Of a stretch of DNA of 64,000 nucleotides, positions 11,055-41,591 are shown piece after piece. Within the stretch, counting starts at the first letter, position 1, and the number at the start of each line of letters is the position of its first letter. A model generated the notes under the pieces. That model was not told where the DNA came from, did not search any database, and was given only the letters and a program-made list of their open reading frames with translations. Source of the stretch: Tigriopus japonicus (taxonomy: Eukaryota > Arthropoda > Copepoda > Harpacticoida > Harpacticidae). The position numbers were made by a program, and so were the translations under genes. The stretch covers positions 1,202,543 to 1,266,542 of the forward strand of contig JAAGOF010000055.1 in the NCBI GenBank assembly GCA_010645155.1, in the 5' to 3' direction.

Positions 11055-11225
11055 ATGTTGGTCTTCATATTTTGTAAGTTCTGTTTTTTGTGCTAGTTTC
11101 ATATTGTGTTCATTTCGTTGAACTGCCTGTAAATTTTAGTGCTCGCTGTGATAACAACGGCATCCGATGAGGGACCACACAAGATTTTGGAAACTTTTTC
11201 TCAACTTGAATGCCCCGACGATTAT
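11055..11225 (+). CDS. Giant receptor exons 1-2: signal peptide
   Basis: Exon 1 (11055-11073) is only 19 coding nt, from an ATG in the context cgccATGt to a GTAAGT donor. Exon 2 (11140-11225) completes the hydrophobic stretch. Together they read MLVFIFLLAVITTA followed by a polar segment, a textbook secretory signal with cleavage likely after TTA or ASD. Exon 2 ends at TAT|GTAAGT in phase 0 and joins exon 3 at 11668. The fit of a split signal peptide across a phase-1 intron supports this as the real start of the gene. Confidence 0.75.
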
Positions 11226-14200
11226 GTAAGTATAAATTGTAAACTTTTAGTTCCTTCTCGATCAAGAGACAAGCTAAAAATTAATTATAAATTATGAACA
11301 GATGAGAATTGTTATGAACATTTGGTTTTTCCTAATTTCCAAGCCTCGAAATCTTGGGATATGAGAGATCGTACATTTTCTCGAATTGGGTTCACGGTTT
11401 TTATTTTGGCTTTAATCATTTTATCGGGTTGGTTTGCGGTGGCATGAGCCCTGACCCACTTCGAGTTCTGGGATATTTGCAAATCAAGCGAATGATCTGA
11501 TCATGACTAAAATGAGGTCAAATCCCCCCTTTCTGTTTGATCTTGGTCAAGAATGACTCACGATATGTTTGTCTTTCACCTGCATGCACCCTAATTTGAA
11601 AAAACTCAATGCAAATACAAATACATCGAACATTAAATCCGATTTGCTCTTTGCCTAAATAATCTAGGAATATTGCACCAAAAGACACGAGTGCTTGTCC
11701 GTCTTGGGTTGTCGAATCAGTCTAGAAAGTGAAGATTGCCCAAAGGATTCTGAGATTTGTGATCCAAGTGGATCATCTTGCTGGAAGGAAAACTGCCAGG
11801 ATGTTCGAAAGCCGTGCTCTGTACTCTGTAACAAGAAACTCTTTTGCCCAAAAGAGCCAAATGGGCCCTCTCAATGTTATGAGGTCATCGAATGTCAACC
11901 AGGATGCAAAGATGAGACTGGGCAAGACTTTGAACTTTCGAACGAAATTTCTGAGGAGGAATACTACGATTACCCCGAGTTCCCACTCCGATTCAAAAGA
12001 GAGGATGTCCAAGAAACTGAAAGGCATAAAATTGGACAAGAGGTATCCATTGATACAAAAGAAATGGACGCATGTCCTCCTGGAACGGAGTTTTGTTTAT
12101 TGCAAGGATTGTGCTTAGCCCAATGCCCAAAAGATGAAGAGAAATGCCCTAGTGGAACATATTTTTGCTTGGACACCAATTCTTGCCAAATCGATTGCAA
12201 AGTAGATAACGAACAGGACGTTATCCAATGCTCACAAGGATTCACGCTCTGTTTATCCACCATGAAATGTTCCGCAAGTTGTGAAGAATATGAAGATGAA
12301 AACATAGAGAAGTGCCCGCCAGGTTTAACTTTCTGCCTTGACTTTGGAGGATGTGCTCATGAATGCCAGGAACAAGAAATAGAAGATCCTTACACACTAG
12401 ATGTCGTTGAATGTCCGCCAGAGACATTCTTCTGTTTGGACCGTGGTATTTGTTCCATGGATTGTTCTGATGAAACTAAGGAGATGGATGGACCAAATGA
12501 CCACGTGGTTCAATGTCCAACCAATATGGTTTATTGCTTGGATCGAGGGCTTTGCATGCATGATTGCAATTACGAAGAAATCAGACCTTTTGAATTGGAC
12601 CCCGACGAGTTCCAGTGTCCCTTAGGGATGACATTTTGCTTAGACCATGGGTTGTGTTTGATGGATTGCGATGGTTTTGGATCAACCGACACACTAGATG
12701 ACATTGAAACGAATTGTCCTGAGGGAATGTCATTTTGCCTTGAAATTGGACATTGTTCCATGGATTGTCATGAGGCTAGGTCGAACCGATGTCGCTCTGG
12801 AATGTCCTTTTGCCCAGAGCTTAACAAATGCAGCACTCATTGCTTACAAAATCAAACCACGGAGCTTGATCAAGACAAAGTACAGTGTCCCTCAGGGTTG
12901 ATATTTTGTCCAAATCTCGCAAGATGCTTGACAAATTGCCAAGAAAGAAATGGTCCAACATTGGACCAAGATGAAATCCAATGTCCAAATGGTATGATTT
13001 ACTGTTTGGATAAAGAAATGTGTGCCTTCGGTTGTGAAACCACAAATCGAACGACCATCATTCAAGAGGAAATCCACTGTCCAATCGGAATGATCTATTG
13101 TTTGGATAAAACAATGTGTGCCTTTAATTGTGGAAACACAAATCAGACGACACTCAATAAAGAAGAAGTCCAATGTCCAAGTGGTATGGTCTATTGTTTG
13201 GATAAAGGAATGTGTGTTTATGATTGTCAGCCTTCGGAGACCAACCATGCTGACGAAACTGGACATTGTCCGTTTGGCATGACATTTTGCCTAGAACAAG
13301 GAATGTGTGTTCTTGATTGTAACCCTCCAAGGACCAATCCTACCAATGAAACACTGCGGTGCCCCATTGGTATGACATTTTGTTTGGATCAAACGATCTG
13401 TTCTTGGAATTGCTCAGATAATGAAACTGCACCATTTAACACTTCGCTGGAGTACAGATGTTTTGGTTCCATGGCTTTTTGCCTGAGCACCAGGAGATGT
13501 GAGACCAATTGCTCCGCAGAATTTGCAATTTGTCCAAGCAAACAAACTTTCTGTAACGCGACTAAAACATGCGGAACCTCTTGCTCCAACTTAGAATCAG
13601 GCAAAAATCAGTGTCCTAGTGGTAAAATATTTTGTTCAGAAGATGGAGCATGCCATAACAACACCACAATATGTTCAGAGCTCTCAAATCCAAATGATTC
13701 GACCATATCCTGCCCACCTGGAACAAGATTTTGCCTTGGCCAAGACGGTTGTATTGCGGATTGCGAGGACACTCCTGAGAAATGTCCCGATGGAACAAAG
13801 TTCTGTATAATGACTGGTTTATGTACAAGTGAGTGTCTAAACGACAACGTGGAACCTGAATGCCCCGAAGGAAATGATATTTGCAATGAAGATAATTCGG
13901 ATAGAGATGGAAAAAGTGATCAGGGAATTCAGGAAGCATTCATCAAGTGCCCGCCAAACACGATCTATTGCTTGGAGGCTGGTGAATGCCTGTATGAATG
14001 TAATTCACCAAAAGACCCATCACTCTCACAATGTCCTCAAGGACTAACATTGTGCTTGGAGACCCTTGAGTGTCGCGCTGATTGCTCCGAAAACCCAATC
14101 AGTCCACCTGATAAGCGTCAAATTATTTCATGTCCAATTGGAACGCATTTCTGTTTGGAGCAAATGTCTTGTCAAAAGGATTGCCATAACGACCAGCCTC

Positions 14201-17200
14201 CTTCGCCTGTTCAGGATGATTGGCAATGTCCTTCAGGCACCACATTGTGTTTGGATATTGGAAAATGCTCTACCAATTGCGACAGCCAACGGGACCCAAT
14301 TCAATTGGACGTGGATTATGTGTGTCCACCTGGGACTGCGTATTGCCTTTCCCAAGGGCTTTGTACTAATTCATGTCATGCCGAGGATGGAAAAGATGAG
14401 AACGGCCAAAACGAGCGCCCAATCCGTGAGATTTCTTGCCCTCCGGGCACTTCATTTTGCCTGGAGTCAAGCCGATGTCTGGCACACTGCTCCAATGAAT
14501 CATCGTTGTCAACCAATACAATATTTCAGTGCCCTCCAGGAACGGTCTACTGCCTGGAAAGCCAACAATGTGCTACAGATTGTCGCCGTGACAAAGATTT
14601 TGGCCTCGAACAGGGATTGGAGGGTCGGCACTCCTCCTTCAAACCCTGTCCGCGTGGGTACATTTACTGTCTGGCAATTGATGCATGCGTTCTCGGAGAT
14701 TGTTCCGTATTTGAAACTCGTCACCCCAATTGCACTTCAAATCAGGTACAGATTCGCTATCTTGAAATCACTATTTTGACACTAAGCCAACAAACATTTC
14801 AGATCTACAACCCCCAATCAAAATCCTGCGAACCTTTCCACAATTTCGATTCCAACCGAACCAACGTACCTTCCTGCGGAGAAGGAAAGGTGAGCGGGAA
14901 ACGTTTTATCGGCGAAAGGAAAATTTGTAATCACTCAACCTTTGTTTCTCCAGTATTTCTGCGGGATTACCAACGATTGCTTGCCAATGAGTGAACCTTG
15001 TGATAAAGCGTTTTGTCCATGGGGTACTGTTCTCTGCAATGGTCAATGCTCAAGAACTTGTTCTTTTGAGGATGTGGGTTGTCCCATCCCAAGAGCGCTT
15101 GCAACTCCCGAATTCACCTCTTGCATGGTCAACCAGCATTGTGAACCAGGATATCTGTGTTGTAAAGATTCAGGTAGCCAACGGAATATCTCCCTCAAAA
15201 TTATGTCTCCCAGAAACAAAATGTACCAAAGTGAGTATTCGTTCTCTTTAGGAAAGCAGCATCGTCATTGTGTGAAAACAAGCTTTTCAAACTCAACATC
15301 GTTAGTCTCCATCCCGGGTGCCATGGCTCTTCAACAAAGTTGTACTGCCATTGCTCTGCCTAAGAATGCTTTTCTCGTGCCTGTCTACAACAAACACAAT
15401 TGCTCGGGGCTTGATTCCACTGATGAACCATGGAAGTGCCCAACGGATACGCTTTGTTGCGATGGAACGTGTTGGGGACTGCCGTCATCGGGTAGAATGG
15501 GAAACGATAGCCATGATGATAATGAGGATGAGATTCGAGGTCCAGCTAAACGAGAGTGTTCTGGAGGAGATATGTAAGTAATAGCCTCACTCCCTGAAGA
15601 GATGATGGCAATCACATCATCCAAAGAAGCTTAGGGGTCCAAATGGTGCATAAATATAACAAAGGTCGTTAGACGATGGAGGCACACAACTATCTTAGAA
15701 CATTGTTTTTTCTGCATTTTTCGTCTGTATCACAATGAATGGATGTAATTTCAGATATTGCCCGTCACTCAAGCTCTGTCTCGCCATGGACCAATTAAAT
15801 GAATGCTCTAAAACGTGCCCCGAACAACAGACGTTGTGCCAAAATGGTTCGAGGTCGATGAAATGCAGTACAAACTGCTCAGGTGAGCTCAATTTTGCAT
15901 AAATCTTATTGATCTTTTCATTCATTCATTCAACAAGTTTTCACGAGTCCAATTTTCGGTTTCAGATGAAGAAGCAATTTCTCGCATTTGGATCACATCA
16001 AAAGCGACAGAAGCTCGCAACAACTCAGATCCCCTGTCTTTAAAACTTTTGGTGGATGAATATGGCAATCTTTCAAACGGTTGGGTAAGATCGCAATTTA
16101 ACTCATTTAACCCCTGTACTTTAGAGGGTACTTTGGTTCGTCATGTCCAGCTTACCTTGCTTTAGTCCAAATTTTTCGTCATTTATGCAATAAGTCTACT
16201 TTGAACTCTGAACAAGTTATTGGCTTAGCAAATACAGTAAATGAATGAAGTTCTTCCTTCTACCAAACATATACATCTCTAATGTTGGAACCTGAACTTG
16301 AACTTCCTGTTTTAGAGAGGAACGGTTATTTCATCGGACGTGGGTTGGGAATTTCGAGATTCATCCTCAACTTGGCAAAAGTTGGAGAAAGGTTCCATTT
16401 TGAGTCGAGGGACGTGGCTCCAATATAGGGCAAAGCAGAATTCATCCTCATCAGGAAGTCTGAACACAGCAGACTCATTTCTCAGAAAGTTCAAGATGAA
16501 ATTGGAAGGAACACCAAATCAGTCAGGTAAATATCGCCGAAAGAAGCACTTTGTGACTAACCTCAAAGAAACCGGTCCTGGAATTTTACTTACAAGAACA
16601 TGTACAATAGAAACTGATGAGTGATGACCAGTGTCCGGAAAAGAAATTGTTAAAAAGTGACAAAATATCAATTATACATTTTCTTCAAAAAAGCCAAACA
16701 ATAAAAAATAAGCCAAATATAAAAAAAAATTTTAGACAACGCCATCATTTGGTCATTTCGTCTGTGTGCACAAACTTGTCCATTACATTTTTGGTGAGTT
16801 ATTGCAAGGCACACTTGGAAACCTAACTGATCTAGCAATTTAGAATATTCAATTTGCCTCAACAGGTGGCGCACTTTTTTGCGCATTTGACAATAGTTGT
16901 TATTTCAATGTTTAGCTTTAGTGCAAATGCCCTTTTGTAAACCTGTTGGTGTATTTGGTTCGTATTGGTTAAGACCTGTTCTGTATTGACTATATGCATT
17001 TCGCACATATTTTGCTAAAAAAAATTTTCCTGCCTTAAACATCAAGAAAATATTGAACTTTCCTTTTGGACTTTCCTTGAAATAGCCAAAATATTTTTAA
17101 AAATCGAGGAAAAGTGGAGAAATACTTTTGAAATATTTTATATATGAAAAATATAGTTCCGGGCTCTGATAAGTGATAACTGTATGCAGGTTGTTAAAAA

Positions 17201-20200
17201 CAGCGTAAACGGATGTCAACACCTCTACTCAGAAAGAACAAATGAAAGTTTTGTTGGTTCACTTGGATTGTATTGTGGCCATGAGATTGACCTTGGACAA
17301 AGAAATTATTGTCATCGATTTATCGCAACATGGCATGATATTCGTAGAAAATATCAGAGCTGGGTTTGGTGTGTCGAGAAGTTTGAGATGGTGCGTGATT
17401 GTTACATATGTGTAAAAGAAGGAGAGGGCAAGAGAGAGATATAAGACAAGCAGCTGTCGCAATCTCAACAAAAATCACCTTGCAAACACATTTGAGTCAT
17501 TAAATCATTCAATCAGGAGGTTCATCAGATGTTATTTTTTGATCTCGCTCATGTTAGTCACAGATTATCACGTAAATGCCCATTTCTGAATTTCAGACAG
17601 GTTCGTCACACTGGCACAACTTGAACTTCCGCTCCTTCCAGCCCGTCCGATTATGGCGGGTAATTCAAAATCCACACACATTACACCTGAACAGGATGGG
17701 AAAGAGGGCGGAAGGAATGACAAGGACGACGATGACGATCAGGGATCTGCCGTCGAGAAAGTGTTTTACGCCATGAAGGAGGACAGCCGAGAACCAGTCC
17801 GATTGAGTGAGGTCTTCAAGGTCGTGGAGGACCCGAAGGCCATCAACATCTTGAGGAGGGAATATCAGAGATGTAAGGCATGAGCAATTTTCTCAGTCAG
17901 ACTGAAAAGAGTGGGAAAAAACTTTTCCTAGAGACTTGTTGGGTTGTTGCTGTTGTTGTTGTTCAAGGGCTCGAGGCCAAAAAGCGCTTTTAATGAGTAA
18001 CAAACAAGTTCCGACCAGATATAATTTGTGATTCCCTGCTTTAAGACTGGAAACCGTAAATGGGTGAAGCTTGAGAACAACACCAAAGGGTTTAGTTGGC
18101 TCTTAACACCACAACAAATAGTTTAAGTTGGAAAGGCAGCCCTTTATTACAATGACAGTGCCAGGGGAAGAAAACGAGGAAGAGTAGAGTCAAAAAATGA
18201 AGGCCAGCCCCAACTGGTTTGTCAGCACAAGGTTTGTTGGCCTTCTGTCTACTCGAGGAGTTGTGCAAACAAGTCTGTAGACCCTAGGTCCAATGCATAC
18301 GGTAACTAAGTGCTTGAACGGTACTTTTATACAAAGCTCATTAAGGGCAGCTACAGGAAAACAACAAAACAACCAACTTGCTCTTTTTAATCGAGGAAAA
18401 TCTACAAAGGAATGGAGGCGTGTGCAAGGTCAACATCCAGAGGTTTTTATGTGAGGCGGAGTATGCCAAGAATAAGCTGGTAGATCAAAAACGCCCACAA
18501 CAATAAAAATTGTCACACGAGGACTCGACTCAATTAGGCATTCACTAGATCTAAACCAGGGTCAGTCATTTGTTAAAGTGAAATTCACATTCCTTATCGG
18601 AAAACACAAAATGTTTTTAAACAAATTGATGAATTTCTTAAAGGTCAAAATTATTCTTTAATGGGAAGAAGTTACAGAAAAAACAAGGAAACGAAAAAAA
18701 CAACATACGAAATAAACTAGGGATATCCTGACGGAAATCAATTTAGGTTAGCTTTACATTACAGTAGACGATATCTACAAAGATTATTTGGATCAATAAC
18801 CGATTTAGATATTTTACCATGTTGGAAGCTATGAACCTTGGAAGTTTTGAATGCATAACTTGACAATTTTTGCCACAACTTTAAGGTAACTATTGGCAAT
18901 TTTGATGGCCTAGGGGAAATGCTTAGTTGAGTCGAACTCGTGAAAGAAAATCGGAATTGCTCCGTGATTGGAAGCGTTCTTGGCGGAAAGTATTCTGAAC
19001 TATCTATCCCCTTACCCTCACGCCAAAGGGCACTGTACAAGGAAACATCATCGGAGCAAAAGTTTGTTTCTTTCCAGCCAAATATGGCCTCTTGATACCC
19101 TCACACTAGCATGGTATGTATATAGTGGGACAGCAGCAGTCTAGTGAGGGGTTTTATGCTCACCCTGAGATACGGAGAAACCTGACTACTGGATGCTTTC
19201 ATCATCTCCCAATCAGGAGAAGGATTTGGTCTGGATGGTTGACTGGTTGGTTACACACACATGTAAAAATCAGATATGAAATGCTCTTTGAGCATCTCAC
19301 TCTGCGCTAAGACAGCTGAAACTAAAAGGGAAAACACATGTCCCGTTAAGACCGTAAACAACCAAGGAGCGCCATGACAGACTAATTGGGGCAAACTGTA
19401 AAGCAACTACTCGCTCCTACACCATCACAGTAGCACATTCGTTTTCAAAGGTGTCCAACAGGGAGCTAAAACGTCTTTGAGTAGACCGCATACTTGAAAA
19501 CCCCACTCACCTATGGCGTCGATGTTCGACTTTGGGCGGAGCAAGACCTCCCGCTGCACAATTGTCGTCAGAGAGGTGGTGATAGGTGCGTTCGTGGTAT
19601 TTACGGTAGTCATACATGTCACAATTCGGCTAAAATATAAGGAGGAAATTTGTTAAAATTAGACGTTATTTTAAATGGAAGGTTATTTATGGGAAAGTTT
19701 GAGGTGTGACGTCATTTGCGTCCCAACTAATGGTTCGTCAAAATTGGAATTTCATGGACCAATCATTGAGGCCTTTTGCGTTCCAACGCCATGAAACACA
19801 TAATTATCTATTTTTTCGGCTCTTTCTTTGCATGTGCGTGCGAGGCATTTTAATGTCAATCCAGCCCATATTTCTTAGGATTTTGTAATGAATATGCGAA
19901 GCAAACGCTTTCTCAGATGTATTCAAAGTCGTGAAACGGAAGGCGTTTTCCAAAGCCATGTTTTATACTTAGTATTTCAAAGGTCCTCGAAATTCGATAA
20001 CGTGAGATTTATTTCGTGTTTGTCAGTTTGGATGAGATTTATTGGAATGCGTTAAAGGTACGTAGCAATGTACATTTCTTGCAATGAATGTGAAGACGTA
20101 AGGATATCGAGGGGTGGATATTGAATATCCTTCAATTTGATATGGTAAAGAGAGTAAAGTTCCAATGGAGCCAACAATATTTTCCCTGTTATAATCTAGG

Positions 20201-23200
20201 TTTTAGGGCCAAACACATTGGAAGAAAAGCAAGTCCATATTTCAAGTGAAAAAGAGACTTGAAAATGCTACTGACGACATTCCAAACGTCGAAACGCTAT
20301 TAAGCTTGTTATAAGTCAAAGATATTTCGTCGGTCAAAGTGCGCGGGTGGTAGTCATTAGTGGCCGTTCATGTCATTTGGGACAAAATAAGGCTTTAAGA
20401 AGACGTGTGGTCCCATCAGCAGGGTGTGTGTATACCCGAAAGCTACAATATAACATTCGACCGACATTCTACAGTTATGCTCAGGACGCCCGATCTAGTG
20501 TGTATGCAGGCGATGGCCGTGCCTGTCTAAAAAAAATGGGAAAGTTGCCTTGTGGGAGAACAAGATTGCGATCTCCTTCTCTCTCACTCTCTTTCTCTCA
20601 ATTTCTCTTTTTCTCTCTCAAATGGGTCGGTTTTTGAGTCAGGAATGGAGGAGGCAATCGTCACTGATTGTAGGATCTCTCTATTGCCTGGTATTGGGTG
20701 TCCATGTCTAGATTGCGTTCCAAGGTCCACATGAATTCGTAACGATCTCCGGCCGTCGACACCACCTTGAAACCGATATACCCAAGGGCGTTGAGGATCA
20801 CAATGCAAGTGCACTCGATGCGAATCCCGTGCTTGGGATTCCAGCCCTCTTCCCGACCTTTCTTCATGTGCTCGGGAAACTTGCTCTGGAAGAAAAACAA
20901 ACAAATTGGAACATGAATTGTGATGAAGTGCCATAGAAGGAAGGAAAATGGAACATACGGCTCACTCAGAGCTAGTCAAAATTCGTACTGAGCGTTGAGA
21001 TGCACACGTGAGCTCAAATTGTGTGCTGGAGGGGACAGTCAACAAATTAGTCACACGGCCTTTCCATAAGGCCAAACAATCTAAAAGTACCTAACGAGTC
21101 CGTCCGTGGGTGCGGAAAAAAGTTCTTGAAAACGGGCCTGAGAGTGCGCAACCAAGTTTTTTTGCGTTGGCAAAGCATGGTGGAAACACTCGCAGATTGA
21201 TGCATTTCTATCCAAACCGTAAGCCTCTCGCTTTTCCAACTTGCTTAACACAGGACCGGTCTTCTCATTTCCCTCCTCGTTAGCGATTCACCAGATCAAG
21301 GATAAACTCCTTAAATAATTAAACACACCAAGGACACCGAAGACCATCTCCAATCTTCATCAATGAACTAAAAGCGTGTTTAACTTTGATATTGGAAGAC
21401 CTACTGTCTGGCTCTAAACCAAATCAACATTGTGCAGTTTTTGGCCGTTTTCCAAACCGACTTCGTGATTCCAAGCTCGATGAAGAAACTGAATTAGCTG
21501 ACTATCCGGCCCTATTTTTGGAACACCTTCCTTCCCGAATGATAGATCGAAGGAGATATGGAGGAGGGGTTTCCATGTCTTTCTACACCCACCAGCTTCA
21601 TGATCCGGGCTCAACAAGAAACGTTCTAAAAACCTTTCTCAAAAAGTTTCCGGATCCTGTTGGGTAAATTCAATTTATAGTCCGGAAAATAGGTTCTTCC
21701 CGGCCCAGGTTTGCAATGTAAAAGTATTGGGGAAGTGGAACTTCGAGTTCACTCCAAAGATTTACTACGTCAACTGGCCTTCTCCACATTGTCAATCTTT
21801 GGAAAGTGAAATGAAGCTAATGGAGGCCTTCTTCATCTTTCTCATGCAAGAACGTGACTTTCTTAGCGCCTCTCAAAAGTGATTCTGAACTGCATGTCAA
21901 GACTTACACTAGATGGACGTTTTGTGTAAGAAATAGAACCTTCATGCAAGCAAGCACTGGGATAAATTCAAATTAGCAAGAACTTTGCCAAAACTCTTTA
22001 AAACGATCTATATGTTTTAAATTTCGGGGTTTAGCAAACAGTGCGTGATGGATTTAGATGTTCTATGCTCTTTACACGTTTACGCTTTGCGTTAGTTATT
22101 AAAATTGGTTTCAGTTTCTCTGCTCCAAAAAGAAAAAGTTGCGAGTGCGCCCTTGGGACTCGATCAAAAAATGAAAGAAAATCCATCATTGAAAGTTTCG
22201 GCTCTTTCGGTCACTGATGAGATGACGTCTGCCAAATTATACTCACATTTTTCGTTTAAGCTTGTAAGCATTTCACCGTAATTTGGGTCCAACGTTTATT
22301 CAAGGACAGAAAACATCTTGGAATCGATAGAATCAATTTGTCGATAGTGTTGTCAGTATTGGAGTTCTATTTCTATTCATGAACATACTACTTCCCTTCT
22401 CTCAACTGTAAATTTCACTCCTGTTCCTTTTTCTTCTTTCTCAAACTTTTATCTTACCCAGGAGGCGGGGTACAAACTCGATTGTTCTGTCTGAAGAGTC
22501 TTTGTCCCAGGATCCCTTCATTGGAACAACACTTTATGCACTGGGTCGGTCGAGTAGAACATTTTTCTAAAGAGGCTCCCTTTCCTTTAGGGCGTTTAAT
22601 AATATTTTACAAGCATCCTGATCACGGCTCCCAAAAACTAAGGACTATTTTCATAGTTGGGTCAACTGGATCAATTCTGTCAGTGTGTTATTCTCTTACG
22701 CTACATACTCTGTACTCCTTCTTTGAAAACTGAGGGAAATGAGTCTTTGCATTGTGACTTGGAGGCCTAACAATGCAAAAACGGATGTTGTCGCCTTTAT
22801 CTTATGAATGATGAAGACACTGGCCCTACGTGAAAGAAAATGGAACACGACAGGCACAAGATGGCACACTTTGCCTCGGGAACAACTTCGAAAGTATTGT
22901 TGAAGCCCATGCATAGGACAGTGTTGACACAGTTTTATATCCTCCTTTTATCCTGGCTGAGCCTCTTGGACCGTGTCCAAAGCACTGAACCATTTTGGAA
23001 TGGAACACAGAGTGCCTTGACATCCGAGGGTGATGTGGCCATTTTGGGATGGCACCTGGTCTCATTATTCACGATTATTTGGAAGCAAGGTGATTAGAAT
23101 GACGGTGATCCATGGGAAACAAGGAGGGAGGGAATAGAAATACTCTGACCGAAAGAAAACCTTCTTGAATAATAGATGCTCGAAGGATTTCATCCCACCG

Positions 23201-32200: not shown

Positions 32201-35200
32201 ATTTAAAAATATGACCGAAAAAAGTTTTTCGGTTAGATATGGCCAAAGAAAGTTTTTTTTTCTGGAAATGGCCAAAATAGTACTTTTCTGGCTAAAAAAG
32301 GTCAAAAATGAGTTTTCTTCCTCTCAATTTGTTACTTGTTGGGCCAAATTTAGTTGGCCCACCAAGGGGTCATACAACCCATACGGAAGGTCACCTAGTG
32401 CTAACAGTCGCTCCACGCCTTGAGTTGCGAAAGTCTTAGGAGCTGATCCTGTAACAGCAATTAAGGCAGGATTGGACAATTTTTTTTTAGATACTTTTCC
32501 TGATCAACCCATTATTCAATGTTTGCACAGATCTGCCAGCAGTAACTCGTTGTTAAACCAAATATCATGTAAATTTTGATCATATCCGGTGACGTTAATG
32601 ATTACTAGGGCCCGGAAATAATTTTTTTAAAATATAAAATATTTTAAAAATATTTATCCGGTTTTCGTCGATTTATTAAATATTTTGGATTTTTCAAGAA
32701 AAAATTAAATATATTCTCGAATATTTGAGTCAGAAAAAATATTTCAAGCAAAATTGAAGAAAATAATTGAACGAGCAATGCTCAATAGGGCTTACCAAAA
32801 ATGCACCGAAAATACAAAATCCTCTACAAAATGGCATTTGTACTAAAATTATGGACATTCACAACCAAAACTACTGTCTTCCACGAAAAACTGCGCCAAG
32901 TATTGAGGCAAATTGAAAATTATATTTTTGAATCAATTGCAATCAAGTATGCCTCCAAAAACGGCCAAATGCATCAAATTCACCGGAAACGAATTTGGAA
33001 AATCGGTGCACACAGACAAAAATACCAAATAATCCCTTGTCAAAAAAAAATATTTCTTGAATATCCGGCTTTTTTCCAAATATTTTGGCCTTTTGAAGAA
33101 AATATATATTGGATATTTTGTCACTTTTTTGCAAATATTTTTCCGGGCCCTAATGATTACCTTCCTTTACAGGGAAGGGATTTCCTTGAGTTCCTTGAGA
33201 AGGGAGTTGTGGAAGCGGTAGTAAAAAATCCGCGACCAACTCAAAAAATTAGAGAAAGACTTTCTTTAGTTTTAAATGCTTACAACGCCACCTTCTCTTT
33301 CAATGATGGTGATGATTTTTATGTTGGGAATGATCATTATTTTGTTCGCTCAGTTACTTTAGTCGCAGTTTAATTTTGATACAGACCAAGACAAAAGGTC
33401 TTTTAGAGTCTAATTTTGGGTAGTTGGCCATTCAATTTCCCAATCGCTCCAAATCAGTAAAAATTGGCCTTCTTTTCTTTGTTAGCTTGATCCAGGGGTA
33501 TCGTATAAGCTGAATCTGCGGGGCCTGTCCAACAATATCTCCACAACAACGCTCCCGACGGAGTTTGAAGATGATTGGGTGGATTTTTTCCAAACCATCT
33601 TCACGGTGGCTTCCGCCGATCAAAGCCACATAGTAAATGTTGCTGTCCCTGGAAAAGTGTTCCCTGATCGCCAGATCATCTTGAAAGCTATGTTGAAGGA
33701 CTGCTCCAAATCCAATAGGAAAAAGGCAAACTCAAATGGAACCAACCCCACAACATCGCCGTCCAGTGAGCGATGGAAGGTAAAACTTTTTTTCCCCAAG
33801 GAAACGTTTGCTCTGATTTTCCTGGCAGCATTGCATGTTTACGTTTTCCACGGAAATGAGCCTAATGGTGATGCCAAATGCTTTCAGTTCTTTTGGAGTA
33901 CCGACGGGAAAATCAACTTCAATCTGGCCAACCAAGACCTCCAAAGGCTAAGACTGCCCAGACATAGTTTGGAAGGCGGACGAGAGTACACGTTCTTTGT
34001 GGAAGTCGTTCCAGAACTCAACCCAGAGGCCTCCTTTCAAAATCAACTGAGTTTTACGGTCGAAGGCTTGGGTCTGAAAGCTCAGTTTGCAGCCTCGGAG
34101 CTCACTTTTGGAATTCAGAATGAAATTGTTCTTGATGGATCGCTTTCTCGCGATCTCGACAACTTATCAGGAAACCTGACGTACGATTGGTTCTGCGTGG
34201 ATGAATTAACCAGCCAACCTTGCTATGCTCTCGACGTCGAAGCTAATCAAACTCAATCATCATCCCCAATACTTCTAAAAGAAAAATTCAAAGAGAATAT
34301 GTCCAAACAAGTTGTTCGCTTACCTGGATTGTCTTTAGCAATTGGAAGGTATTGTACATGTATGCACTACTTTTTTTGCTTAGTTTTGCGCCAATTTTCC
34401 CTAAACTGTTTCTTGTTCTGCCATATGTAAACATGCTCCATTCAGGGTGACCAATTGAAGCTCTAGTTAAAAACGCAAACTTCGTGTCTAGGTTCTACTT
34501 CCGCATGTGCATTTCAAAGGATACACGTTCCGATTGTGCCAGAATGATTGTGGAAATTAAACCTGGCAAGGTGGCCACAATTCAGTTGGCTGCGCGTGAC
34601 TCTGTCACGAATCCAGCGGAAGAGACCATAATAAAAGGTGACTATCAATACTGCAGAAAGAGGTTAGGACATCTTTTGACGAGTTGCCCTTTTCACATAT
34701 TTGGTGCAGCTCTTGTCACGGGGTCCCAAGGTACTTGCGTCCATTGGGAATGCGTTCATGCTGAGGGCTTTGCCTTCATTGATCTGACAGAGCATACCAA
34801 GTCGGCTCAAGTGGTCTGTTTTACTGGAACGAGTAGTCAAAGAGGATTCCATCTGGTGATCCCAGGGGGCGTGTTGGAAGGTAAAACCCGCTACAAATTT
34901 CGATTGGTCGCGAAGAATCCCCTTTTGGGAACTAGTGACGCATCAACTGTCATAACCACTTTGGAACCACCCAACGAGGGCACATGCGAGGTAACCTACT
35001 AATCAATTATCTTCATACATAAAACTAATTCGTAGGTCGTTTCCTTTCCGGTAGATTACTCCCACATCAGGCGTGGCCATGAACACCACTTTTGTCTTGG
35101 ATTGCCATTCGTTCAACAACATGGACCATCTCATTTTCAATGTCGAGTATGCCGATTTGACTTCTGAAGCACCCAACAATTTCGTTCATTTGGACGAATT

Positions 35201-38200
35201 CTTGGGATCAGAGACGAGCGAGTTAAATTTCTTAGCATCGCCTGGCAAAATCCATCTTCTCGTGACGATCTGCACTTTTCAAGAGGTGTGCGAGCAGCTC
35301 CTATTGAACGAAGCAATTCAAGTCGACAAGGCACAAATCGACGATGGAACCGTTAGGTACGCTCATTCGGAGAAAACGAGCTCCAAGTTAGTTATTTTGG
35401 TTCCCAACTAGATGAAAACTGGGTCCACTGTCAAAGCTTATTTGAGACGTTGTCCAAACACTTGCTTCCCTCACAAAGGGTGTTAAGATAGGATACACTC
35501 ACGCACGTGTGTGTGGGATGTTAAGCCTAGCAGGCTAGGCCTCTAGGCCTTGCCAAGAAAAGAGCTCTCGACTTGGAAGCTTTTGGTCTTTGCACAAAGT
35601 AACTAGTGGCCAAATATGTTAGGGTTCAGTTTGAATACAGATGGAAAATTGGATCCGAACATTTTCGCGACTGACCGCTGTAAAGAGCCTGTTGCAAGTG
35701 TCTCCTTGCAATCTGAAGGGTTGGTTTGACATGCTTTTAAATTACCAAATTACTCTTGAGGGGACTCCTAAACCAAAATGAATTGTTTACCAAGGTCTTC
35801 CTTGTTTAAAATAGGTCACTTGGGATCGCGGTGGCGAATGAAATTTCTCAAAAAGAGCCATTACGAGCTCTCAGTTTGATGCGAAGAATTGTTCTCAGTG
35901 TCTCACAAGATGATGGCAATGTGTGGAACAAGTACAAAATCCCAGTGTGTTCCTTGCAATTTGGAACATTTCGAGAGGCCACTGCGGAATTCATACAGGT
36001 CTGTCTGTCACCCCATAAACCACAGTCTGATCCCTTCCTGAAATTGGACCTTTTATGGACCCCATTTCTTTAGGATTTGGTCCCGAGCGACGTTCCCATT
36101 GCTGTCACGATGTTGGATTTGTTTTTGAAATCTCCTTGCTGGAACGTCAAGGACGAGAGCATCGCCGATGAGCGTCGAAATGCTCTTTTGGCTGGAAAGC
36201 AACTATCAGATGCCCTTGGAACTTTGCAGAAGAAACTTCAGCCCCTCCAAGAAGGTATAATGCCATCCAAAATAGTCGTTCAGACATCATTTGAAAACGG
36301 GTGAAAAGAAAATTTCATTTCCTGGAAGCGTTTTTGAACTCACTCTCTCCCCAGATCCTTCCTTTCTTGCATGCTTTGTACTACACGAAGCGCGCCAAAT
36401 TTGAAGGAACCTTCCCCTTTTTGGGAGGTCACCCTTACATACCCTATAATGACCTCCCAAAAAAGCGTGAACTGTCCCTAAATCTTCTCATGTAGCTGAT
36501 ACTTGAGATGCACATTGAAGTTTGCCGCCTTATTTATACAAGAAGCTTCTGAATCGTGGGTTACGTAGCATTAAATGCTATCTGACTCCTTTTTAGATCC
36601 TTCATTGAAAGAGAAATTAAGGAGAAAACGAGCCATCCCATTCTCTCACGACTGGACCTCAAAGCTCAAAAGATTAAAGAGAAGCGATGGGAATTTAAAC
36701 GAACAAGGAGAAGGTCAGCACAAGATTCTCACCTTCTTTGACAGCGTCATCTCTCCTGAACAGGTAAAAAAATTCGCGCCTCACTTGATGCCATCATGAA
36801 TATAAGACTCTTATACTCTGCTTTGTAGATGGAGGTGGTTCTCCAGTTTTCTGAAATGGCTATTGGGGGCGATGTCGAAAGCGAAATCCAAGCCATGAGA
36901 GATCTACTGGATCAAATCCACTCGGATTCAATGAAGAACTTGTGCCGTGGAACCACACCTCAATCTGATCCACGCATGCTAATGACGGACACCCTCGAAA
37001 TCTCCATGAAACGCACGGAATTTATAGAAGGGGACAAAGAAAAGTTCGGCTTTGGATTGTCCTCAAGCACGGTACAATGAATATGCTTTTTCTTGAAGAA
37101 AAGAACACATTTTCATCCTGATTGATAGAGCGTGGATTAAAAAGTTTTAACTTAAAACTTTAAAAAACTTTTTTGGACGATTTGGCCTAAAAAACTTTTT
37201 GGGGCTTTGAAGCTTATTTTGTACATATTTTTGCATTTTGTAGAAATTTAAAGAAGAATTTTTTTTTCTTGTTTTTCAGGCCCAAAAAACGTTTTTGTGA
37301 CGTTTTTATCCGACCTAAAAAACGGTCGTCAATATTTTCTAAGTGAAAGACCGAGGACGAAATTTTTTTTATCTAATGATCGAGAACAAAAAATTGCCTG
37401 CTAAAAAACAACATAAAAATATATTTTGCCCTATCACGGTTAACACATTGAGAAGAGAAAACTTTTCTTGGTCATTTTTGTGAAAAAAATGATTTTAGGT
37501 GAAAGAAACTTTTCTTTGCCCATATTTTCTAACTTAAAAACTTCTTGTTTTGACATATCTAGCAACCTTTTTTCCGTCCTCTACTGATAAACATTTTTTG
37601 GAACCATTTCAGGTCAACTTTGATGATGGTGCGATTCAAAAGTTTTCCGAGTGGAATTGCCTCTCGAGCGAAGAGACGGATCCCAATTTCACTCCTTGTA
37701 TTGGCTTGTGTATTGGAACAGCGCTCTATGAGAATGATTATGTCACGCCCACTTCACAGAGATTCAATGTGACTCGACCTCCCATCAAGAGCGATATCCA
37801 TGACATCCGCCTTTTGAATCCACAAACTGGAAATGATCTCACCACCTTCTACCAAACTGAAGATTTGGGTGGATCACTTCAAATTCAGATTGAAGTCCAC
37901 AAAAACGCCGAGGATCAAGCTTCATCCCGACAAAAACGGTCCACTAATCCATCCATTTCCACGGGCTATGAACTCAAAGTAAGTTGTTGGGAAAAAAACC
38001 ACACACACACATGTTATCGAAAAAAAGAGAATCCCCAAAATTAGCTGATTTTGTCTTTGATTTAGCCATTGCGAAAATTCAGCCAGCCTATGGGAAAATC
38101 CCCTGCACCAAGTGATTTATCACTACCATATACAGTATATACAATTGTAATGCAATGTACGAGTATAATGTAATGTCCAATGAGATTATTCTCGCAATGA

Positions 38201-41200
38201 ACATCATAAAAAAAATTGCTCATGACTTTAGGATTTTAGAAGAATGCTGTGCGGGTAGTAAAAGCCAATTGAGGAAAAAAGTTATTAATTTGCTCAAACC
38301 AAGTCTCATCAATATTGATAGACATTTTGTGAAATTATGACTCTTTGTTCCGTGATGACGTTTTCACTCAAATGAAATCTATTAACCAAGCAAAATATGG
38401 GCAGGAAAAATCCCAACAAGTACAAAAACATGCATAGGCAGCATTTGTTTCTTTTAGTAGCCTTGGTCCAATTTCACTATCAACATTAAGGGAACTTCTC
38501 TAATCCAACTCCATACAACAATTATAATCCACTAGTCCAGCAACTTTTCTATGTAAATAGCCTGATTGTGTATGACTATTTTTAGTGCATGGTGTTCCAT
38601 AACGACAACTGGACCTCTGAGTTCTGTGAGACCAAAGAGTTCGTGACCAAAGCTGATGGAACCGCTACAGTAAATTGTGACTGTAGTGTTCCAGGATACG
38701 TGGCTGTATTTTTGGTGAGCTCTGGCACCGGCGAAAACGTGACTCTCAAAGTGAATGAGGTGCGGGTATTTGATGAGACCATCACCATCACGTAAGTTGT
38801 CGTTCGCTCAACGACGTCTCCTCATTTTTGAGCACATTAGACTTGATTAAATGTCATTCGGAACATGTACAGGTTTCTGGACGCATACAAGGATGTGGTG
38901 GGCGAAAATGAGGAGGGCAAATCCGAGTTCATTACCTCGATTCGCAATCAAATGGCAAGTTTGCTCACCACAGACGTGTCCAATATCCAAGATGTGGAGG
39001 TTTGGGAAGGCAGCACCGTGGTAAAAATGCAAATTGTGGGTTATGACGAACAAGAGAGCGCAGAACTGAAGAAAGCTTACATGGAACTGGCTCAAAAATT
39101 CGAAAGAGGCGAAGTCAAAATGGTGAGTTAGCCCAAGAAACACTGAATTTCTGGAGTGGGAGGCTAAAGATGAGCATTATGATTTCTTGTAGGGTTAATT
39201 CGATTGCGTTCTTCTGCAAACGAGACTTGGCTTGTATTCATTAGACCAGGTATTTCAAATTTTAGCTTAATCGAATGCCGGAGTGAAAAGTTATGCCTTC
39301 TGAAACTTATGTACTGAAGAGAGCATAGAATGAATGAGTTCGCCCTTTTGTAGTAAAACAACTACCAGTAAAGGGCTAGTTCATTCCTCCTTGGTAGGAT
39401 TTGCACTAGACTTCTAGTGCAAAGCATAACTTTTGTCTCCGACGATCGATTGAGCTGAAAATTGAAATACGGATTCTACTCAACACATGCGAGGTCTCAT
39501 TTACGGAAGAACGTAATTGAATCGTTTCTACTGGAAATCATGATTCCTCTTGTCAGCCTCCCAGTCCCGAGAAATTCAGTGGTACTTGATTAGCCTTAAT
39601 GGAGTGATGTTTTGAGCTTTGAAGCCGGTTTTACCATAGATCAAGGAACAGTGTGTAATAATCTACTCGAAATGTTAGCAAACCCAAAGGGATATAGACA
39701 ATCCTAGAACGAGGATGAAAGTCGAAAGATCAACAGTGCCAACAAATCTTAAGCCTAATCTCTGACATTTGAGAAGGCCAAGCAAGGCCGAAGGGCATAG
39801 GATATTAAGGTTTATCCCATCCAAAAGGGACGGCCTTAACGAAACTTGAATATTGTAGGAAAGGTTATGGAAAGTAAGTTTCTTGGTGCTTGAATTTCAC
39901 TTTTATCTTTTGTTCCAATAACGTAATGGTCGCGAATTCTCTGAAGACGACTAAACAAGGAATAACGAACTACAGGGAATCCTAATTGAACCTGTTTCAC
40001 TTTCTAGAGATATTCAGGACAAATATACATAAAAAAATTGTAAAGAATTGAAACAACGTCTTAAAGCCATGGGTTAGAAGACCTTTTTGGTCGGATTTTG
40101 AATATAGTTAAGATACCGAGAACCAAAGGCACGAATTTTCTAGCCAAAACTGAAAATCAGAGGTTCTCTTTGGAGGCACATTACACTAAAGGACTATGGC
40201 GATATTTTTTTTTTTAATTAAATATTATTGGTAGCCATCATTTAATCAATCCTTCTTTCAGGATATTTACCTTGAAAAAAGTGGATTTTGTTTTTTTTCA
40301 CATCCTCAATTGACCGATAAAGTTGTTTAGTTAAACGTAAAACAAAATCAAATGTTTCAATCTCGTTTGTTTTAGACGGATCAAAATGGCCGACCTCTAA
40401 CATTACAACCCCAATGTGTGTTGGATTCCTGTCGAGTTCGGGATAAAGAGAGTGAAACCAAGATCTTTTACATCATCGCGGGCGTGGCTTTGGCCATTAC
40501 TCTCTTCGTGATCATTCTCATCATTGTGGGTGTAATCATGAAGAACAAGAAGCGCACCGAGAAAGTCAAACCTTTCATGGTAAGGCTTGTTCTTTACCCC
40601 TTTTGACACGAATTGCTGTCGGTTAAAGTACAGAGCACGTTGATACGAGTACACTCTTTACGAAAAGAAAGCCACTTAATCCTTGTCTCGATTGCAGAAC
40701 TCGGGATCTCAACCTCCAACTTATCGAACGTTCCAATTTGCGGACTCTTTGGAGGGCACCAAAGTCAATTATCGAGGAAGCAGAAAACCAGTCCCAGCAC
40801 CATATTTACCCTCTAATAGCAACTACAGTGACATGCAACGCTCTCAAATTCTCGAGGAAGACTCAAGTACCGCTAAAACATGGGAAAAATCCGGGAATGG
40901 GACATTAAATAATATTGGTTTTGCAACCCTTTTAGAGAGCTTAGATTCGGGAATCCTCATTGACCGCGATCATGGAGATGTGCCCAACAATCCTGCCCGA
41001 TATAAGAAGCCTTCGAAAGAAGATTTAGCTAAAACTCAGCCGATTTCAGAGGATATCGTAAGTTGCGTCCTAAATTCGCTTTCTTCCCAAAGTAAAGGTC
41101 AAAAAGTGTTGTTTGCATCTAATTTCAAACTTCCTACCACTGTTGCTGGTAATTTAAAAAAATGTATATTTTTACGGTTTTACGTTACAAAAAAAAAATA

Positions 41201-41591
41201 TCTTCGAGATTGATATCTAACTTAAAAACCCGTCACCAAATACTTTCTATCAAAAGAAAAACGGAGACAAAATATTTTGACCATAAAAACGCTGAATCAA
41301 AATTACTTAGAAAGAAAAACGCGGTGGATTATTTTTTCACAAAATTTTAGCTTTTTTAGCTTGTATGATTAAGGAACTTGTTTGATGCATATTTGACCTT
41401 TTTTCTCTTTCTGCTTACAATGGTTGACGTTGTATTACCTAAGGTTTTTTCTTAACGCCATATGATTAATGCTAAAGGCAAAAAATATTGACACACGCTA
41501 TTTTTAAGATCTGGATCGTGATTCTACACTTTTTCAGATCAAGCGAGTTGAGAGACGAATGACGGAGAAACTCCCTGGAACACCGGAATGA
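11055..41591 (+). CDS. Giant single-pass receptor: Cys repeats, cadherin-like, REJ, GPS, TM (38 exons)
   Basis: Predicted 3,760-residue type I membrane protein. Exons: 11055-11073, 11140-11225, 11668-14745, 14803-14889, 14954-15573, 15755-15882, 15966-16084, 16316-16526, 25591-25795, 25880-26063, 26132-26261, 26329-26606, 26932-27336, 28080-28245, 28330-28540, 28946-29091, 29278-29438, 29503-29721, 30501-30715, 30806-30984, 31249-31550, 31630-31800, 31871-32134, 33486-33779, 33888-34348, 34492-34637, 34710-34990, 35055-35356, 35815-35998, 36074-36254, 36597-36763, 36829-37071, 37613-37978, 38586-38791, 38873-39122, 40376-40579, 40698-41057, 41538-41591. All phases match and no internal stop remains. 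Order: signal peptide (1 to ~16); Cys block and ~29 Cys repeats (~36-1045); NDAP/cadherin-like modules (~1340-1850); CGxCGG module (~1851-2024); REJ region (~2280-3280); degenerate GPS (3404-3445); TM 3586-3610; ~150-residue tail with PPTY. REJ plus GPS resembles the polycystin-1/suREJ family. A single helix after the GPS matches suREJ1, not the 11-helix polycystins. The weakest junction is the 9-kb intron 8 (16527-25590): phases agree (G|CC) and flanking modules look alike, but a break there is possible. Confidence 0.75.
11668..14745 (+). CDS. Giant receptor exon 3: about 29 tandem cysteine repeats
   Basis: A single 3,078-nt exon (1,026 residues). It opens with a cysteine block (C-rich, residues ~38-115), an acidic spacer and an RFKR dibasic site near 11991-12002. 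It then holds about 29 units of consensus CPxGxxFCLxxxxCxxxC (12070-14697), each separated by 10-25 mostly acidic residues. Units near 12980-13230 (GMIYCLDK, GMVYCLDK) are nearly identical, which suggests recent duplication. Units near 13525-13660 and 13860-13890 are degenerate. Four cysteines per unit in fixed spacing predict a small disulphide module. I do not recognise it as a named domain; it is neither EGF nor TSP1. Strong antisense and alternative-frame ORFs across this exon are shadows of the repeat. Confidence 0.85.
14954..16526 (+). CDS. Giant receptor exons 5-8: post-array Cys region and first matrix module
   Basis: Exon 5 (14954-15573) and exon 6 (15755-15882) continue with irregular cysteine motifs such as CPWGTVLCNGQCSRTC and a CCKD/CCDG pair. 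Exons 7-8 (15966-16084, 16316-16526) switch to a cysteine-free module containing WEFRDSSSTWQKL. This resembles the GxWxxSxDxGxTW signature seen again in exon 12, a feature of large extracellular NDAP/cadherin-like repeats. Exon 8 ends TCA G|GTAAAT in phase 1. A short tract GTGAGTATTC at 15231 could serve as an alternative donor, but no acceptor at a plausible distance keeps the frame. Confidence 0.7.
16629..17168. mobile_element. hAT-type MITE copy 1 (non-autonomous)
   Basis: Starts CAGTGTCCGGAAA and ends TTCCGGGCTCTG, imperfect terminal inverted repeats. It is internally AT-rich without a transposase frame. Read in reverse complement it is similar along its length to the element at 32606-33152, sharing CCCGGAA termini, AAAATATTT blocks and the GTGACAAAATATC segment. 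An approximate 8-bp direct repeat (GTGATGAC before; GTGATAAC four bases after) may be a decayed target duplication. It is older and more diverged than copy 2. Confidence 0.65.
17653..17883 (+). CDS. Candidate small acidic protein or first exon, unknown
   Basis: A 76-codon frame from ATG 17653 that follows a plausible acceptor (gaatttcag at about 17588-17596). The product has an Asp-rich segment (DKDDDDDQG) and then a helical-looking basic/acidic C-terminal half (VEKVFYAMKEDSREPVRLSE). Near its end AGAGAT|GTAAGG resembles a splice donor, so it could instead be the first coding exon of a nested gene whose other exons I could not find. I do not recognise the family. Confidence 0.3.
   Translation: MAGNSKSTHITPEQDGKEGGRNDKDDDDDQGSAVEKVFYAMKEDSREPVRLSEVFKVVEDPKAINILRREYQRCKA
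19511..19629 (-). CDS. Unassigned minus-strand exon candidate
   Basis: Bounded by a strong acceptor (TATATTTTAG| at 19630) and a strong donor (ATAG|GTGAGT at 19510). More than one frame is open across its 119 nt, including one with CDMYDYRKYHERTYHHL and another with TTIVQREVLLRPKSN. It lies downstream of the GFRP-like stop on the same strand, so it could be a 3'-UTR or alternative exon of that gene, or part of something unseen. Frame and product cannot be decided. Confidence 0.3.
20661..24092 (-). CDS. GFRP-like protein (GTP cyclohydrolase I feedback regulator), two exons, nested
   Basis: Exons 24003-24092 and 20661-20885 on the minus strand, joined in phase 0 (CAG|GTAAGA donor; CTTCCAG|AGC acceptor), give 104 residues with stop at 20661. 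The C-terminal half, CIVILNALGYIGFKVVSTAG then a WTLER segment, resembles the GFRP pattern IVLxxLxxxGFxVxSxTG followed by a W-x-L-x-K/R end. GFRP is a small cytosolic pentamer that controls GTP cyclohydrolase I in tetrahydrobiopterin synthesis. Similarity is limited to about 35 residues and the N-terminal half is not alignable by eye, so the family call is tentative; the gene structure itself is better supported. Confidence 0.45.
25591..27336 (+). CDS. Giant receptor exons 9-13: NDAP/cadherin-like matrix modules
   Basis: Five exons (25591-25795, 25880-26063, 26132-26261, 26329-26606, 26932-27336), phase-matched throughout. The core signature is IIIQ|VTPVNDAPQV at an exon junction, followed by LGLAILGAVKSKIGRWQV and a DDWIDI segment. 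This is the typical boundary between repeats of large extracellular proteins with CSPG/cadherin-like folds. These modules are adhesive beta-sandwiches in known families; the exact domain class is not certain from sequence alone. Confidence 0.7.
28080..29091 (+). CDS. Giant receptor exons 14-16: CGxCGG cysteine module
   Basis: Three phase-matched exons (28080-28245, 28330-28540, 28946-29091). They encode a dense cysteine module with DDCGVCGGKNSC, RDCGGSC, CGICGTD, CGECG and CGKC motifs. The DxCGVCGG signature recurs in extracellular proteins of animals and protists as a short disulphide or metal-knuckle-like module. A mid-segment (IPGCDGVAG) links two halves. The module sits directly before the REJ region. 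Confidence 0.7.
28699..28758. repeat. 27-bp tandem duplication in intron 15
   Basis: The unit beginning AGCAAATTTCATTTTCAATG occurs at 28699-28725 and 28726-28752, with a third partial copy starting at 28753. The two full copies are identical, so the duplication is recent. Confidence 0.85.
29278..33779 (+). CDS. Giant receptor exons 17-24: N-terminal REJ region with charged inserts
   Basis: Eight exons (29278-29438, 29503-29721, 30501-30715, 30806-30984, 31249-31550, 31630-31800, 31871-32134, 33486-33779). The reading frame changes across the 64-bp intron 29439-29502; staying in frame through it would lose the conserved continuation. Exon 21 ends in an acidic run, and exon 23 has an acidic stretch (~31910-32010) followed by a lysine-rich stretch (~32030-32100). 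These form a long charged insert inside the ectodomain. Intron 23 (32135-33485) contains a hAT MITE. Confidence 0.65.
32606..33152. mobile_element. hAT-type MITE copy 2 with perfect 8-bp TSD
   Basis: 547 bp bounded by TAGGGCCCGGAAA and its inverted counterpart TTCCGGGCCCTA. It is flanked on both sides by the identical octamer ATGATTAC (32598-32605 and 33153-33160). Eight-base duplications and TIRs starting (C/T)AGGG are characteristic of hAT transposons. Internal sequence is AT-rich; overlapping ORFs on both strands show no transposase similarity. Inserted in intron 23 of the giant receptor. Confidence 0.88.
33888..37978 (+). CDS. Giant receptor exons 25-33: core REJ domain and pre-GPS region
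   Basis: Exon 25 (33888-34348) carries the REJ hallmark of a beta strand, LDGSLSRDLDNLSG and YDWFC. Exon 27 (34710-34990) has FHLVIPGGVLEGKTRYKFRL, and exon 28 (35055-35356) starts GTCE|ITPTSGVAMNTTFVLDC. All three match the PKD1/suREJ REJ family pattern. Exons 29-33 form the helical then beta-rich segment that precedes a GPS in this family (GAIN-like). Exon 31 has a dibasic RRKR near 36620-36632 and exon 33 has RQKR near 37928-37939, both furin-type sites. Cysteines in exons 29-33 are few. Confidence 0.75.
37072..37612 (+). other. Intron 32 of the giant receptor: AT-rich poly-A/T tracts
   Basis: Contains repeated AAAAACTTTTT-like tracts on both strands. Similar tracts occur at 29930-29990, 32210-32300 and 41150-41350, all in introns of the same gene, which suggests one decayed AT-rich repeat family. 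No boundaries or TSD could be drawn. Confidence 0.4.
38586..38791 (+). CDS. Giant receptor exon 34: degenerate GPS motif
   Basis: Encodes CMVFHNDNWTSEFC, then a spacer, then NCDCSVPGYVAVFLV. The spacing of W, C, G and CxC followed by a hydrophobic AVFL strand matches the GPCR-proteolysis-site motif found after REJ domains. The catalytic tripeptide expected after CxCx (HLT or HLS) reads VPG here, so autocatalytic cleavage is not expected. Exon runs in phase 0 and out in phase 2. Confidence 0.7.
38873..41591 (+). CDS. Giant receptor exons 35-38: membrane-proximal stalk, TM helix and cytoplasmic tail
   Basis: Exon 35 (38873-39122) encodes a charged stalk with a possible SEA-like alpha/beta character. 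Exon 36 (40376-40579) ends the stalk with a CxxxxC pair and gives a 25-residue helix starting IFYIIAGVALAITLF, then KNKKR as a stop-transfer signal. Exon 37 (40698-41057) is the tail, starting NSGSQPPTYRTF; PPTY is a WW-domain (Nedd4-type) ligand. Exon 38 (41538-41591) adds 17 residues and TGA at 41589-41591. No further helices follow, so this is not an 11-TM polycystin. Confidence 0.75.
39123..40375 (+). other. Intron 35 of the giant receptor
   Basis: About 1.25 kb of unique AT-rich DNA without recognisable repeats, ORFs or RNA genes; a poly-T/A tract lies near 40205-40225. Confidence 0.5.

Follow-up and report, generated by a model that had tools for sequence, protein, structure and literature searches.

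The window analysed here, a stretch of 64,000 nucleotides from contig JAAGOF010000055.1 of the copepod Tigriopus japonicus, contains a coding chain of 38 exons on the forward strand, extending from an ATG at 11055 to a stop codon ending at 41591. Translation of the rebuilt chain gives 3,768 residues with no internal stop, and GT-AG borders are present at all 37 introns. The predicted protein begins with a signal-peptide-like segment, followed by a cysteine-rich region, a REJ domain (PF02010), a single transmembrane helix and a tail, and has neither the catalytic triad of a GPS nor a channel match in the parts scanned. By its REJ domain, the predicted product belongs to the REJ family, and within it to the single-helix giant type. 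The features referred to below are, in window positions:

11055-11073 and 11140-11225 (+), exons 1-2, hand-chosen, with the start codon and a signal-peptide-like N-terminus, MLVFIFLLAVITTA
11668-15882 (+), exons 3-6, cysteine-rich region, residues 36-1333
15966-16084 and 16316-16526 (+), exons 7-8, cysteine-free stretch before intron 8, with boundaries that differ in the automatic chain
17642-17872 (+), candidate in-phase cassette exon in intron 8, 231 nt or 77 codons, outside the 38-exon chain
22909-23089 (+), signal-peptide-like rival start exon of a possible separate REJ gene, MHRTVLTQFYILLLSWLSLLDRVQS
25591-27336 (+), exons 9-13 of the 38-exon model, W-rich and VTPVNDAP motifs, beta-type repeats by eye
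28080-29091 (+), exons 14-16, second cysteine-rich segment with CGVCG, CGICG and CGECG motifs
33930-35144 (+), exons 25-28, REJ domain, residues ~2649-2960
36620-36682 (+), exon 31, pair of R-x-[KR]-R motifs of furin type at residues 3161 and 3178
37928-37939 (+), exon 33, furin-type site RQKR, residue 3395
38586-38708 (+), exon 34, degenerate GPS-like motif, C..W..C..C.C retained and H-x-S/T gone
38874-39122 (+), exon 35, putative SEA-like module with G-S (EGSTVV) at the turn between two predicted strands
40463-40540 (+), exon 36, transmembrane helix, residues ~3593-3618
40541-41591 (+), exons 36-38, cytoplasmic tail of 150 residues with a PPTY motif, and stop codon

The exon model was drafted with an exon chainer, which combines codon and splice scores, and was completed by hand. 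It agrees exactly in start and stop with the original prediction for this locus, and likewise comprises 38 exons (a count known beforehand) that stay open to the stop, but the earlier length of 3,760 residues was not reproduced. The best chain of the chainer itself has 45 exons, with 32 of the 38 model exons identical in both; exons 1 and 2 are absent from it, exons 3, 7, 8 and 11 are bounded differently, and it holds seven extra exons within intron 8 and two elsewhere. This 45-exon chain scores 885.8 on the real strand, as compared to 68.8 on the reverse complement and 43.7-66.0 on five Markov sequences, using a scoring model that was trained on exons from the same region and is hence biased towards the real strand. 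A codon model trained on exon 3 only gives +106 bits in the predicted frame over the 2,313 codons of exons 9-38 versus a mean of -841 for the two other frames, the latter partly a stop penalty, and 12 of these 30 exons are individually negative. The coding chain at 11055-41591 is genuine. Residues 1-14 resemble a signal peptide by eye.

Within the cysteine-rich region, 26 exact C-x6-C-x5-C-x3-C units are located between residues 171 and 1007 (positions 12073-14583), whereas 1,000 shuffles of residues 36-1340 yielded three at most, bearing out the earlier claim of a cysteine-repeat array upstream of REJ. A looser cysteine pattern detects 29 units, from residue 59 to 1331. AlphaFold modelling of two array units, with 12 internal alignment rows taken from 12 non-overlapping unit pairs, predicts small beta hairpins, with block values of the predicted local distance difference test (pLDDT) of 80-87 in the cores and 49-53 in the linkers, and a predicted template-modelling score of 0.32. 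A Foldseek search with this model returned no significant relative, LDL-A, CBM14 and other rows being intermixed, and the Pfam scan of the array exon was without match. The likeness to CBM14/peritrophin chitin-binding hairpins consists of overlaps of 17-21 columns in rows 19-21 and 24 of 32, which are non-significant (E 7.7-8.3); the Avr4 rows among the Foldseek matches we take to be CBM14.

Downstream of the array, W and VTPVNDAP motifs span exons 7-13 by eye, and the Pfam scan of exons 9-13 gave no match above cut-off. Just ahead of the REJ part, at 31249-32134, the window contains strongly acidic and then strongly basic low-complexity runs (DDDEEEEEDEDKG, KNKKRTKKKS), which are odd for an ectodomain. 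The profile search for the REJ domain that had been read from the sequence was positive, as PF02010 matches the final model with E 6.3e-36 and 124 bits (cut-off 25) and a rough gene model with E 1.2e-35; the match is partial, covering profile positions 32-351 of 452, i.e. 320 positions. In the Kyte-Doolittle profile (19-residue window), one segment of the whole protein exceeds 1.6, corresponding to the single predicted helix. The earlier view of a giant, REJ-bearing, single-pass arthropod protein is upheld by the PF02010 match, the one helix found by transmembrane prediction and, as to the arthropod source, the 146 genome-wide places of Chitin_bind_4, a family typical of arthropod cuticle. C-type lectin, channel and PLAT domains gave no Pfam match in the scanned parts, PLAT being absent also from the segment reaching the C-terminus at E<=0.1, and 961 residues from the REJ half of the rough model found no match in a PDB sequence search.

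The GPS, in contrast to REJ, could not be recovered in the form claimed before. PF01825 is found neither in the 57-residue motif of exon 34 or the surrounding 272 residues at E<=5, nor in 945 residues at E<=0.1, and only the C..W..C..C.C skeleton is recognisable. A genome-wide scan detects 14 GPS places over cut-off, none on the contig of the window (C15). A hidden Markov model (HMM) built from four of these 14 has its best place in the protein at residues 3417-3444, but at noise level (-1.8 bits). CDCSVPGYVAVF occupies the place where the same four genomic GPS read C.C.HLT.FA, with H-L-T replaced by V-P-G. The H-x-S/T triplet is the catalytic GPS motif and is absent in ten of 32 human adhesion G-protein-coupled receptors (PMC13062082; here and below, published sources are cited from excerpts), hence a non-cleaving GPS relic would not be unusual. 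Cleavage at the GPS-like motif is, judging from its residues, not expected, because the catalytic ones are gone.

Two other elements are located close to the membrane. The three R-x-[KR]-R motifs are clustered ahead of the helix in a manner matched by none of 5,000 shuffles. In the structural model of exon 35, EGSTVV occupies model residues 45-50, with strands at 38-43 and 50-54 and a block pLDDT of 71, which weakly suggests a SEA-like fold. A PDB sequence search with this stretch gave no match, and the SEA profile PF01390 is found at two places genome-wide, neither on the window's contig.

REJ was also detected on another contig of the same genome (C11), at two further loci located at ~3.12 Mb and ~8.59 Mb. 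The former has PLAT, fn2 and PKD_channel (E 7.9e-36) nearby, and the latter PLAT and fn2 in a stretch that is partly N, as determined by Pfam. These polycystin-1 type loci have REJ in common with the window gene, which differs by its one transmembrane helix and the lack of a PLAT match. In a tblastn search of the surrounding 100 kb at both loci, the window protein reached a best E of 0.34, with two rows below 1, and the raw count of the exact cysteine unit is one in each C11 set. No GPS match over threshold is present on contig C11, so that GPS loss or decay may extend to other REJ genes of this genome. Downstream of the REJ gene, the window holds a weak teneurin-EGF-like match on the reverse strand (42904-43692, E 6.2e-5, 23.1 bits, cut-off 65). 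Further along, minisatellite arrays occupy 54423-55392, the first with units like GGATAACTCGGTACAC and the second with a unit resembling the reverse complement of the first array's unit; the two flank a 22-nt array (54882-55058, 98% matches).

Based on these data, we propose, with a slight leaning in its favour, that the chain is one gene for a giant type I receptor with a hairpin stalk, the ectodomain of which is cut close to the membrane by furin-type or SEA-type proteolysis. The cysteine region of ~1,300 residues would form a stiff, disulfide-clamped stalk, or alternatively a multivalent binder, reaching the extracellular matrix or the cuticle. REJ and the folds downstream of it would then pass load to the membrane. 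Furin-type proteases, acting on the R-x-[KR]-R sites rather than on the GPS, presumably carry out the processing, with additional cleavage, less surely, at the G-S turn of the membrane-proximal SEA-like module; this would leave a non-covalently held or sheddable ectodomain, comparable to Notch-like or mucin receptors. As no channel was found, any signal would have to proceed via the tail with its PPTY motif or via a partner. A coral REJ protein, multi-pass and with a GPS, is part of the skeletal matrix proteome, which shows the matrix to be a possible destination of a REJ ectodomain (PMC4890752).

Whether the array and REJ halves are one gene turns on intron 8 (16527-25590, 9,064 bases). We consider a single gene across it probable, because phase and splice signals agree and an in-phase candidate exon is located inside: the exon 8 donor scores 4.7 and the exon 9 acceptor 7.9 (the highest scored), their phases agree (a one-in-three chance), and the candidate exon at 17642-17872 has acceptor 5.9, donor 1.0, codon score +16 and a phase that fits both sides. 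The open frame of exon 9 contains no Met. The open frame around the candidate exon (17590-17880, +, MAGNSKSTHITPEQ...INILRREYQR) is coding-like, was found in one copy in the genome and has no match in the Pfam scan; the exon itself may be a cassette exon or, equally, open the coding region of a nested gene with its ATG at 17653. The alternative, clearly less likely in our view, is two same-strand genes: A, from 11055 to ~15.9-16.6 kb, for a secreted cysteine-repeat protein, and B, starting within intron 8, e.g. at 22909, for a single-pass REJ receptor without the array. Several observations speak for this division and weigh against the join. Of the two donors of the rival exon at 22909, the one at 23029 scores 0.2 bits and the one at 23089 3.1 bits, and each is in phase with exon 9; unspliced exons 6 and 8 reach a stop within ~6 and ~32 codons, respectively; AATAAA is present at 16700; and exons 7 and 8 carry little codon signal, being among the weakest exons by codon score. 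A grouping by eye of exon 8 with exons 10-13 as one W-rich repeat family was unsupported by HMM, hhalign and shuffle tests, and is for that reason not used for the join. On the other hand, the rival start exon has a codon score of -2.6 and a second hydrophobic run, chance alone yields a similar signal-peptide-like candidate in 18% of 60 equally long Markov sequences, and the good donor of exon 8 is phase-matched to exon 9, with the coding-like 231-nt exon between them. From a hand sum of scores, the one-gene chain without the 231-nt exon is ahead by just ~3 bits, which is not decisive.

A single gene may also encode an ectodomain that stays uncleaved, with the GPS-like motif, basic sites and SEA-like turn unused, and the protein would then act as a plain adhesion or matrix-anchoring tether. 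This is in agreement with the missing GPS catalytic residues, and the proposed SEA-type cleavage is further weakened by the uncertain SEA assignment, as PF01390 is not found in the exon 35-36 segment at E<=5 and EGSTVV is unlike GSVVV or GSIVA, the autoproteolysis motifs published for SEA (PMC6954182). Yet an uncleaved tether leaves unexplained why three R-x-[KR]-R sites cluster ahead of the helix, and we regard it as rather improbable. A functional rival, which overlaps with the structural ones, is a gamete recognition receptor for the egg coat like suREJ1 or SpREJ3. The REJ domain is common to the window protein, SpREJ1 and SpREJ3, and SpREJ6 is described as the only member weakly expressed in testis, so that presence of SpREJ8/9 in gametes would be compatible (PMC1934368). 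The alga Ectocarpus has a REJ/GPS protein specific to male gametes (PMC4700764), and a leafhopper transcript named receptor for egg jelly-related was grouped with sperm-related ones (PMC12453401). However, C-type lectin, channel and PLAT are unmatched in the scanned parts, and among SpREJ transcripts in embryos those of SpREJ8/9, which come nearest in plan, are the most abundant (PMC1934368). The gamete role that the original prediction derived from the family does not follow from it, considering that only SpREJ1 and SpREJ3 are tied to the acrosome reaction, the functions of other members being called unknown in the same source (PMC1934368). A gamete role is possible by analogy, while a receptor for the egg coat appears very unlikely.

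REJ proteins have been described chiefly in polycystins and in the sperm of sea urchins. More tentatively, an arthropod REJ lineage may have lost the polycystin channel as well as GPS autoproteolysis, with the SEA-like module and furin sites as a proteolytic switch borne by a cable of disulfide hairpins over 1,000 residues long, for force- or matrix-sensing, a plan undescribed within the material searched. If true, a giant arthropod REJ receptor lacking channel and GPS would imply a use of the REJ ectodomain that is independent of channel gating, and provide a case for testing the interchangeability of GPS and SEA cleavage. It would also raise the question of function for the single-helix SpREJ8/9 type, called unknown in PMC1934368. 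Among the matches listed in the literature search, no title concerned a plan of array, REJ and single helix. Searches of a protein collection, from which the window protein itself did not come back either and which is thus perhaps poor in animals, returned no relative of residues 1334-3700 at E<=0.001 (3,151 candidates) or of residues 1340-1990 at E<=1 (6,584 candidates).

Receptors with SEA or SEA-like modules (IA-2/phogrin, mucins, Notch, EpCAM) resemble the window protein in the predicted helix-strand-strand-helix directly before the membrane, with G-S in the inter-strand turn, and differ from it in that the latter has no SEA sequence-profile match; we know of none among them that carries REJ. 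The PKD1/REJ family is defined by the REJ domain (PMC1934368), and the one helix of the window protein is within the family range of 1-11. PLAT follows the first transmembrane helix in just five of ten sea urchin members (PMC1934368), hence its lack does not decide family membership. SpREJ1 (suREJ1) shares REJ and one transmembrane helix with the window protein, but comprises 1,450 residues and includes EGF and C-type lectin domains, neither of which was matched in the scanned parts. It had been put forward as the single-helix relative, and does have one helix, but is not alone in this, as SpREJ8 and SpREJ9 are closer (PMC1934368). SpREJ8 comprises 3,274 residues, with a partial REJ of 347, and SpREJ9 2,965 residues, with a partial REJ of 319; both have a single predicted transmembrane helix and no known-domain homology upstream of REJ, and are encoded by 29-30 exons across ~28-31 kb (PMC1934368). 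As compared by description, the likeness comprises giant size, one predicted helix, a partial REJ, of ~312 residues in the window protein, the lack of known domains upstream of REJ, and the exon number and span. GPS is reported for all compared members except SpREJ10 (PMC1934368), and is accordingly ascribed to SpREJ8/9, whereas it is undetectable in the window protein; the cysteine array has no counterpart reported for SpREJ8/9 in the excerpt, SpREJ9 having serine-rich stretches. By these descriptions, SpREJ8/9 represent the closest known plan found, nearer than suREJ1, from which the predicted Tigriopus protein is distinguished by its cysteine array, its lost GPS and its putative SEA-like module.

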